Of a stretch of DNA of 34,804 bases, positions 9,849-11,838 are shown in pieces. The translations under genes were made by a program, and so were the position numbers. The notes under the pieces are model-generated. The model did no database searches. It was not told the DNA's origin and saw only the letters and a program-made list of their open reading frames with translations. Source of the stretch: Lachnospiraceae bacterium (lineage in GTDB: Bacteria; Bacillota; Clostridia; Lachnospirales; Lachnospiraceae); contig JALFIB010000243.1 in assembly GCA_022776305.1 (NCBI GenBank), forward strand, positions 1 through 34,804. Direction: 5' to 3'. The stretch's first letter is position 1; the number at the start of each line of letters is the position of its first letter.

Positions 9849-10025
9849 ATGTCAAATGTAATCGTAAAAGAAAACGAAACTTTGGACAGTGCTTTACGTC
9901 GTTTCAAAAGAAACTGCGCAAAGGCTGGTATCCAGCAGGAGATTCGTAAAAGAGAGCATTACGAGAAGCCGAGCGTAAGACGTAAGAAAAAGTCTGAAGC
10001 AGCTCGTAAGCGTAAATTCAATTAA
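9849..10025 (+). CDS. rpsU: 30S ribosomal protein S21 (bS21)
   Basis: A 58-residue, highly basic protein, normal length for bS21. It contains the typical '[19 protein letters not shown]' start, '[25 protein letters not shown]' middle (cited in parts) and a Lys/Arg-rich tail ending 'KRKFN'. S21 sits on the 30S platform near the anti-Shine-Dalgarno region. The ATG at 9849 has its best ribosome binding site, GGAGGGAGG, at 9826-9834, an unusually long 14 bases away. A weaker GGTGTGA lies nearer at 9838-9844. It has its own promoter at 9743 and a strong terminator at 10034. Read-through from alaS is also likely, because no terminator follows alaS. Confidence 0.97.
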
Positions 10026-10033
10026 TGTGCAAT

Positions 10034-10066
10034 AAAATCCCTGGTCAATTATGGTCAGGGATTTTT
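10034..10066 (+). terminator. Terminator of rpsU
   Basis: AAAATCCCTG (10034-10043) pairs perfectly with CAGGGATTTT (10056-10065), followed by another T. The A-run and T-run are symmetrical, so it may work on both strands. Confidence 0.9.
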
Positions 10067-10072
10067 ATTACA

Positions 10073-10302
10073 GTTCAGGGCATCAAGAAATGAAAAGACA
10101 GTTCTAGGATCAGTACCCGAAGGGAAATGAATCCTAGAACTGGATTTTCATTTCGAAGTGGGCGGAACGCCCACAAAGCCACAGACGCAGGACGCGAAGC
10201 GGACAGCAGCCTTCGAAGAAGGCGGTCTGCGGCGTTGATGCCCTGAACGTGAGTAGTGGGCATCAGACAACTTAATTCATTCGACAGAAAGAGGTGGCAT
10301 CA
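10073..10302 (+). other. Nested-hairpin intergenic element before cls; candidate structured RNA or palindromic element
   Basis: GTTCAGGGCATCAA (10073-10086) is perfectly complementary to 10235-10248, giving a 14-bp closing helix. Inside are several arms. The first is a 24-bp arm (10087-10110 with 10131-10154, 22 of 24 paired) whose apical loop holds CCC-GAA-GGG. Next is GTGGGCG-GAA-CGCCCAC (10158-10174), and last GCCTTC-GAA-GAAGGC (10209-10223). Several arms share a GAA triloop. The right half is GC-rich compared with its neighbours. TGATGCC at 10236-10242 can also pair with GGCATCA at 10259-10265 or at 10296-10302, the latter touching the cls start codon. No convincing promoter or long conserved protein is seen here. 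A 62-codon antisense frame (10263-10075) is a by-product of the palindromes. Confidence 0.6.
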
Positions 10303-11838
10303 GTGAAGAAACCTTCAAAACGTTTACTTGGGAGAATCATTTCAGTTGCACTTGCGGTGGTGTTTCAAGTCCTATGGATCATTTTTGCCGTGTTTGTGCT
10401 TCGGAACAGATTTCCTTTTGTGGATGCATTGATCGAGATTGCCAGCATTGTTGCCATATTATGGATCGTTAGCAAAGATATTAATCCGGCATATAAACTG
10501 GCGTGGACGATTTTGATCCTTGCAGTGCCTGTGGCAGGAGCCGTAATTTACGTGATGTTTGGAAAGTCAAGGCTTGGAAAAGACATGCAGGAAAAACTGG
10601 ATGAATCTTTTCAAGAGGCATCACAGTATCTGGTTCAGGATGAAGAAATTAGGGGAAAACTGGAAAATGAGAGTAAGGCTGCAATGCGTCAGTCTATGTA
10701 CATCAGTGAAAAGGCCGGCTTTCCGGTTTACCAGAAAACAACAACGAAATACTTTAAAGTGGGAGAAGAGCTCTATAGCACCCTTTTGGATGAATTAAAG
10801 GCTGCGGAACACTATATTTTTATGGAGTATTTCATTATTGATGACGGTGAGATGTGGCAGGGAATATTGGATATTCTCGAAATGAAAGCAAGGCTTGGGC
10901 TTGACGTCCGGCTAATTTACGATGACTGGGGATGTGCCAGCACCATGCCGCAGGAGTTCCAGATGGCATTGCAGCGAAGGGGGATACGGTGTGAAGTATT
11001 TAATCCCCTTCTTCCCATAGCTTCCGTATTCCTGAATAACCGTGACCACAGGAAGATTACAGTAATCGACGGACATACTGGTTTTACAGGAGGCATTAAT
11101 CTGGCTGATGAATACATTAACCGGAAAGAGCGGTTCGGTTATTGGAAAGATACGGGAGTGATGCTGAAGGGAGAAGCCGTTTGGAGCTTTACCGTAATGT
11201 TCTTGCAGATGTGGAGTGTCCTGTCACATGATAAGATCAATTATGGAAAGTATCGTCCCCATGAATGGCATACGCAGGAATTTGAAGATGACGGTTTTGT
11301 ACAGCCATACGGAGATACACCTTTGGACCATGAGACAGTGGGTGAATCTGTATATCTGAATATTATCAACAGGGCAAAAGAATATGTGTATATTTTTACC
11401 CCTTATCTGATCACAGATAACGAAGTGATCACAGCGCTTTGCCTTGCGGCGAAAAGCGGAATTGATGTGCGTATCGTGACACCCGGTATTCCGGATAAGA
11501 AACTGGTTTTTCTTCTGACCAGATCCTATTATGAGACACTCTTAAAAGCAGGTGTACGTATTTTTGAATATAAGCCGGGATTTTTGCATGCAAAATCTTT
11601 CGTGTGCGATGACAAGATTGCAACAGTGGGAACCATAAACCTTGATTACAGAAGTCTATATCTTCACTTTGAATGTGGTGTCTGGATGTACGGTTCGCAG
11701 GCCGTGATGCAGATTAAAGAAGATGCTTTGAATATTTTGGAAGAGTGCAGGGAAGTGACTCTTGAAGACTGCCAGAATAAATCTGCAGCGACCAGAATAG
11801 GACAGAGCATACTCCGGCTTTTTGCTCCGCTGCTTTAA
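10303..11838 (+). CDS. cls: Cardiolipin synthase (phospholipase D family)
   Basis: A 511-residue membrane enzyme that joins two phosphatidylglycerols to make cardiolipin. Two or three N-terminal hydrophobic segments (about residues 8-32, 38-53 and 64-84) are followed by two phospholipase D domains. Each holds the HxKxxxxD motif: 'HRKITVID' starting at His249 and 'HAKSFVCD' starting at His429, each followed by the usual Gly/Thr-Ile-Asn-Leu-x-x-Glu/Tyr segment. I start at GTG 10303, because AGAGGTGG lies 5 bases upstream. An in-frame GTG at 10294 would overlap that site. It follows rpsU's terminator and the nested-hairpin element 10073-10302, which could control its expression. No separate promoter is clear. 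The next gene, a D,D-carboxypeptidase, is 66 bases downstream. Confidence 0.93.
   Translation: MKKPSKRLLGRIISVALAVVFQVLWIIFAVFVLRNRFPFVDALIEIASIVAILWIVSKDINPAYKLAWTILILAVPVAGAVIYVMFGKSRLGKDMQEKLDESFQEASQYLVQDEEIRGKLENESKAAMRQSMYISEKAGFPVYQKTTTKYFKVGEELYSTLLDELKAAEHYIFMEYFIIDDGEMWQGILDILEMKARLGLDVRLIYDDWGCASTMPQEFQMALQRRGIRCEVFNPLLPIASVFLNNRDHRKITVIDGHTGFTGGINLADEYINRKERFGYWKDTGVMLKGEAVWSFTVMFLQMWSVLSHDKINYGKYRPHEWHTQEFEDDGFVQPYGDTPLDHETVGESVYLNIINRAKEYVYIFTPYLITDNEVITALCLAAKSGIDVRIVTPGIPDKKLVFLLTRSYYETLLKAGVRIFEYKPGFLHAKSFVCDDKIATVGTINLDYRSLYLHFECGVWMYGSQAVMQIKEDALNILEECREVTLEDCQNKSAATRIGQSILRLFAPLL

Follow-up and report, generated by a model that had tools for sequence, protein, structure and literature searches.

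A cloverleaf-shaped repeat between rpsU and cls in a Lachnospiraceae genome is probably an old copy of a MITE family

The rpsU-cls spacer and its cloverleaf

Here we report the analysis of the spacer between rpsU and cls in a Lachnospiraceae bacterium, which lies within a 34,804-nt stretch of DNA (the window). The spacer holds a strongly folding unit flanked by the two genes on the same strand, and the features of the locus are as follows.

9849..10025, + strand: rpsU, ribosomal protein S21 (Pfam PF01165, E 9.7e-24), the gene upstream of the insertion
10034..10066, + strand: terminator-like hairpin and T-run after rpsU, read by eye; the element starts just past the T-run
10073..10248, + strand: whole 176-base unit of the probable cloverleaf MITE (R1 covariance model, 123 bits, E 2.2e-36, the window unit being itself one of the 47 model-building sequences)
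10073..10086, + strand: left strand of the closing helix, the inner part of the left terminal inverted repeat, an exact complement of 10235-10248
10087..10154, + strand: arm 1, a long hairpin of 24 bp with 2 mismatches
10158..10174, + strand: arm 2, a GGGCG-GAA-CGCCC hairpin
10178..10233, + strand: arm 3, GCCACAGAC...GTCTGCGGC, with two inner hairpins (RNA and DNA folds; helices 7-9 of the covariation model)
10235..10248, + strand: right strand of the closing helix, the inner part of the right terminal inverted repeat
10249..10270, + strand: worn right end with a probable remnant of another unit (GGGCATCA at 10258-10265)
10303..11838, + strand: cls, PLD-family and cardiolipin synthase-like (Pfam PLDc_2 E 1.3e-39, PLDc, PLDc_N), the downstream neighbour outside the element

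By eye, a hairpin similar to that at 10034..10066 also lies 3' of rpsU in the relatives inspected; a pattern scan for promoters and terminators with a loop limit of 3-8 came out empty, and this hairpin was not among its output. The helices listed in the preliminary description are present in the sequence: the 14-bp closing helix is perfect (14/14), the arm formed by 10087-10110 and 10131-10154 has two mismatches in 24, and the hairpins CCCGAAGGG (10116-10124), GTGGGCGGAACGCCCAC (10158-10174) and GCCTTCGAAGAAGGC (10209-10223) occur as claimed. The last of these is contained in a branched third arm, 10178-10233, which completes the shape. The predicted RNA fold of 10067-10302 reaches -108 kcal/mol where shuffles average -60.5 (z -9.7), and the minus-strand DNA fold of 10067-10255 reaches z -13; in both cases none of 200 shuffles was as good. 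In these folds 10073-10248 forms a cloverleaf in which the closing helix surrounds three arms, arm 1 being long and arm 2 short with a GAA loop. A search of the window against Rfam gave no match at the gathering score, and relaxed thresholds added sub-threshold hits only, with nothing credible among them.

One reading is that this unit acts as a translational or attenuation switch of cls, in which TGATGCC (10236-10242) pairs with either an upstream or a downstream GGCATCA and thereby bares or hides the cls start. All of the strings exist, with GGCATCA at 10079, 10259 and 10296, the last touching the GTG start, and they belong to a leader with a very stable fold; the window contains GGCATCA 13 times where 6 would be expected, and none of 100 shuffles reaches 13. 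The three pairings, however, are very unequal. In an equilibrium calculation, the structures in which TGATGCC is made to pair with one or the other downstream partner are less stable by 9.6 and 15 kcal/mol, and the outermost pairs of these alternatives have ensemble probabilities of 1.1e-7 and 7e-11. The sequence that follows the unit is predicted to fold about as well as its shuffles do (z +1.05). The conserved association with a regulated gene that would mark a riboswitch or a cls leader was not found either, the element being absent from all 18 syntenic rpsU-cls spacers of relatives (26 relative loci were collected, and 8 in which a simple motif did not find rpsU were left out of the count). 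One of these 18 relatives (L234) carries a copy upstream of rpsU instead, and one of the 8 uncounted loci (L236) has a copy upstream of cls. Gene arrangements around 75 classified elements include every orientation, with (-,-) in 27, (+,+) in 18, (+,-) in 17 and (-,+) in 13 cases by crude ORF calling. Because copies are scattered over many sites in mixed orientation, the syntenic spacers lack the element and the rival pairings are negligible, a cls-specific switch is unsupported, and we regard it as very improbable. At rpsU-cls the element would be a passenger, with an incidental effect on cls at most.

Dispersal and insertion of the repeat family

The alternative raised in the preliminary description, a mobile palindromic element, is supported by dispersed copies and by clean insertions with 8-bp duplications. 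BLASTN found relatives in 31 of 98 genomes, all 31 inside the genus of the window (31/47, own genome included). When a single mismatch is tolerated, the end motif GTAACAGTTCAGAACAG is present in 16 of 20 genomes tested, with as many as 75 (G009), 69 (G035), 65 (G036), 53 (G030) and 50 (G040) hits, and has no hit in the own genome. In the latter, the R1 covariance model built from 47 copies gave 6 matches at E <= 0.001, two of which are strong (the window unit and C140:9175-9337). At E <= 1e-6 it matched 20 of 150 family genomes, own included, the per-genome counts being lower bounds since up to 19 candidates were scored in each. A pattern scan of named genomes recovered at least 119 stretches; among the matches listed, most are from Lachnospiraceae, and the others come from Clostridiales, Candidatus Choladousia, Anaerostipes butyraticus (one record) and some records labelled Oscillospiraceae, Eubacterium or Ruminococcus. 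Of 20 stretches read in other genera, 14 differ from GTWACWRTTC by at most two mismatches at the left end (L183-L185, L195, L198 and L199 fall outside). Judged by eye, most of the 20 form closed folds with several arms, the third arm being simpler in some. By crude ORF calling, 16 of 95 elements overlap an ORF of at least 100 aa. Virus contigs searched with two exact patterns gave no match, nor did plasmids and phages in a distant blastn search with one unit. The repeat is short (~175 bp), lacks coding capacity and is present in many dispersed copies, as expected of a miniature transposable element (MITE). With copies spread across related gut bacteria, it most likely represents a parasite-like repeat, not a control switch of cls.

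Empty sites were sought among 151 loci, and of several pairs inspected only two were clean. L104 compared with L138 shows an 8-bp duplication TTTATTTT, and L138 compared with L104 shows AAATTCGA. In both, the inserted unit is 176 bp long, starts with GTAACAGTTC and finishes with GAATAGTTAC (GTAAC...GTTAC). These two pairs, with their clean unit and duplications, identify the family as a non-autonomous transposon. Terminal inverted repeats and a target duplication of fixed length were also found at the family level: in 1.06 Mb of loci we collected 44 non-redundant units of 150-185 bp with paired ends (at least 13 of 20 positions alike), whose flanking octamers are identical in 16 cases, agree at 7/8 in 3 and are lower in 25. 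The identical octamers are 81% AT, compared with 48% in the loci. The family inserts as one unit with GTAAC...GTTAC ends, duplicating 8 bp at AT-rich sites. Points that weigh against the MITE explanation are the 25/44 end-paired units without a duplication of at least 7, the state of the window copy described below, and the conserved cloverleaf itself, which ordinary MITEs do not need.

The window copy has ATTACA for GTAACA at its left outer end and a worn right outer end unlike the consensus, and its flanks show no clear target duplication. We regard it as an insertion on the basis of its homology to the family and of the 18 relatives with an element-free rpsU-cls spacer. The repeated GGGCATCA had been put forward as a possible duplicated target, which does not hold because its first copy sits within the closing helix. 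An 8-mer copy of an element's own left end lies downstream of 24 of 107 elements and upstream of 4 (re-paired flank control for the downstream copy: mean 11.4, largest 18 in 200 draws), and the downstream GGGCATCA is probably a scrap of a second unit.

Hairpins combined with high copy number are also features of REP/RAYT-type elements moved by a single-strand Y1 transposase. Such transposition is not expected to give 8-bp target duplications together with inverted terminal repeats, both of which the cloverleaf family has, and we give this origin almost no credence.

Several smaller observations were made on the copies. Genome G039 carries very short derivatives with the same ends, of 39, 64 and 73 bp (L166:3011-3049, L167:324-387 and L168), and a supposed 2-kb autonomous copy there (L166) was rejected as two short derivatives flanking an ordinary gene. 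Another palindromic element, small (~50 bp) and with an end near GTTTAGCGCCGACCGAAGCGGAG, sits inside cloverleaf loops or arms at L171 and L173 (arm 2 loop), L170, L024, L041, L166, L121 and L149. By eye, G007 and G012 share its position within the arm-2 loop, and L024, L041 and L166 share its position within arm 3; an exact 19-base piece of it was found in 2 of 248 loci. The orthologous copies L073 and L090 are identical over 174 bp while their 200-bp flanks share 95% identity, a hint of conversion or of strong constraint.

Covariation and the upkeep of pairing

Base pairing was analysed in an alignment (A1) derived from 123 places, of which 118 have the closing helix and 108 are inside the helix and length limits; 47 were chosen by k-mer distance and L069 was removed by hand, A1 comprising the window and 46 of the 108 units. 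Two segments, GGGCGGAACGCCC and AGCCNCAGAC, are invariant in A1 by construction, as they were part of the search pattern and regex. The invariance of arm 2 is likewise an artefact of the search pattern, which also included the 5' side of the arm 3 basal helix, and different sequences stand at the position of arm 2 in other genera. Among 2333 cells of A1, 94.1% pair; shuffles reach 80.4%, and slid registers 35-44%. Two-sided (compensatory) changes occur in 34 of 50 helix pairs, a count reached in none of 500 shuffles, and they affect 9/9 modelled pairs of the closing helix and 10/10 pairs of modelled helix 3 in arm 1.

Few of these pairs are G-T. Cells changed on both sides number 316 against 48 G-T cells, G-T makes up 2.2% of standard pairs (48/2195), and A-C mismatches occupy 26 of 2333 cells; in 12 tRNAs from the fetched loci, a small set in a notation blind to A-C, G-U accounts for 9.5% of standard pairs (26/274). 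So few G-U pairs despite covariation point to upkeep of the pairing at the level of DNA and not to an RNA switch. We read the pairing as probably kept up in DNA, through a need for the fold in transposition or through hairpin template switching at replication, an RNA role being possible and not needed.

Orthologous copies were compared in addition. Across seven pairs, a small sample in which one pair contributes 17 of the 33 paired differences and the L017/L140 flanks align badly, paired sites differ at 3.5% (33/940), loops at 7.5% (16/214) and flanks at 11.0% (263/2383). The lower divergence of paired sites and the covariation of 34/50 pairs would both fit a structured RNA with a regulatory or trans-acting role that transposition has spread and that is under selection as RNA, for instance for mRNA stability or termination in UTRs. 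Published work on Bacillus cereus offers a parallel, as intergenic repeats are reported there to be transcribed (84/165 and 62/155 in two strains) and bcr3 to correlate with mRNA decay (PMC3446304). The shortage of G-T pairs relative to tRNA, the few A-C mismatches, the mixed gene orientation and the lack of an Rfam family all argue against selection of this kind, which we consider improbable.

Compensatory changes may also arise without function if template switching at replication keeps repairing the arms of inverted repeats towards perfect palindromes, a process by which, according to one published proposal, hairpins with compensatory changes arise and persist (PMC8794818). The large excess of cells changed on both sides over G-T cells is in line with this process. 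The orthologous comparisons speak against it: in the 7 of 11 with an element identity of at least 0.93, 1 pair is compensated, 4 are changed on one side but kept, and 10 are broken, the corresponding numbers in the 4 more diverged ones being 23, 14 and 43. Template switching alone would moreover leave the recurring multi-arm layout in other genera unexplained. We regard it as possible, though less likely than not, and it is compatible with a MITE origin of the element.

An unlikely further reading makes the cloverleaf the working part of an unusual transposition route, where a single-strand or cruciform fold would join the ends and be recognised by an IS66-type transposase. If true, it would account for both the strict Watson-Crick upkeep and the recurrence of the multi-arm layout across genera.

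IS66 as a candidate mobiliser and relation to known repeats

Two IS66 elements are tabulated with the value 8, taken here as duplication length, in a published list (PMC3281130), and the GTAA-type ends and 8-bp duplications of the cloverleaf family suggest IS66 as its mobiliser. Complete IS66-family elements with the same type of end, GTTACTRTTCA, were found in other genomes, and GTAA/GTTA ends together with 8-bp duplications are common to the repeat and to IS66 elements (L163, L207), which differ from it in that their interiors carry genes.

Within the genus, kinship of ends was limited to the related GTTACTATTCAC of G014. This complete IS of 2267 bp has GTTACTATTCAC ends and an 8/8 duplication ACTATTTT, and encodes a divergent IS66 transposase (PF03050 E 1.9e-10, 41.0 bits, cut-off 23.1; NF033517 E 8.9e-41, below its cut-off). 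Relatives of the transposase occur in 3 of 47 genus genomes and 2 of 250 family genomes, and lie beside GTTAC[TC]ATTCAC ends in G042, G007, G124 and G052; all 58 plasmid records with relatives are below 60% identity, at 21-25% among the 20 matches listed. Beside the G124 copy, a second ORF starts at an end GTAACTATTCAGCC. It has relatives in 4/250 family genomes (E <= 1e-15) and 9/397 (E <= 1e-8), with none found on plasmids, and an ORF in G113 shares 64% identity with it over 80 aa. The ORF is placed 233 bp (G113) and 318 bp (G314) inside GTAACAGTTCAGCC ends; the end-like motif closest to it in G230 is GTTACTACTCAG, present twice, and in G137 the ORF end is GTAACTATTCAGAACCC.

The closest match between the two kinds of end is in G113, where the ORF-side end and the end of a cloverleaf unit on the same contig are alike at 20 of 21 bases and the duplication flanking the cloverleaf unit, GTATCATC, is perfect. 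Among 264,778 control positions, the 14-base end had a single match when one mismatch was tolerated. G113 is the only genome on both the R1 element list and the ORF-relative lists. The ORFs of G113 and G124 stop at contig ends ahead of the catalytic domain, and scanned alone these pieces matched no IS66 family. Their assignment to IS66 follows from a weak relation to full-length IS66 proteins, the G124 ORF being 28% identical over 151 aa to that of G052. Both full-length relatives are IS66 transposases by PF03050 (cut-off 23.1), in G052 with 71.8 bits in a 2207-bp IS with GTTACTGTTCAG at both ends and in G386 with 82.3 bits in a 2265-bp IS with ends GTTACTGTTCAC and GTTACTGTTCAA. The truncation of the G113 and G124 ORFs and the lack of an 8/8 duplication at the G052 and G386 ISs weigh against the IS66 link.

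Searches nearer to the window gave negative results. Relatives of the G113 ORF were found in 0/47 genomes of the genus (a 105-aa query without positive control), and PF03050 at E <= 0.001 had no match in the copy-rich G009, G030, G035, G036 and G040 (a search over 16 of the 47 genus genomes). No convincing ends were found for the IS66 copy of the own genome (L210) or for L211. Other IS66 copies of the genus were rejected as partners, their ends GTAAATGTAAAACC (L207, duplication 8/8) or GTAAGCGCAAAATAAACC (L209) being unlike those of the element. Two composite loci were observed along the way: L218:1405-2711 is a fragment that has a GTAACAGTTCAGCC end and the start of an IS-like ORF and leads into a Cas1 frame (PF01867 E 4.2e-62), and L203:34-2178 holds two different IS-like elements end to end, the second beginning where the right end of the first should close. 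From the likeness of ends, IS66 is a likely candidate mobiliser of the cloverleaf MITE; an IS66-family transposase made elsewhere would recognise the shared ends and move the element.

We therefore consider it probable that the window unit is an old copy of a Lachnospiraceae MITE family of ~175 bp, in which terminal inverted repeats close a three-armed cloverleaf; IS66 would move the element, the arms would be kept paired in DNA and the copy at cls would be a passenger. Short structured intergenic repeats, some derived from MITEs, include Correia, RUP, BOX and ERIC, which differ from the cloverleaf family in their ends and target duplications. In the Bacillus cereus group, bcr1 folds into a conserved structure. 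Like our element, bcr1-bcr3 are described as intergenic, MITE-like and present in many copies per genome (PMC3446304, PMC6542083), whereas bcr mobility is tied to a TTTAT motif (PMC6542083) and the cloverleaf element has GTAAC ends and 8-bp duplications; the latter also differs in its cloverleaf fold and in having relatives in several Lachnospiraceae genera. A published description of the cloverleaf repeat was not found in the open-access PMC literature.

In place of a riboswitch that was tempting but false, the analysis puts a family of mobile repeats with a covarying cloverleaf in their interior. When covariation is strong, a functional RNA is often considered proven; the present case suggests that repeats acting as DNA can satisfy the same criterion, and that a scarcity of G-U pairs then gives the warning. 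A partnership between IS66 and a MITE in gut bacteria is proposed as well, in a form that can be tested.
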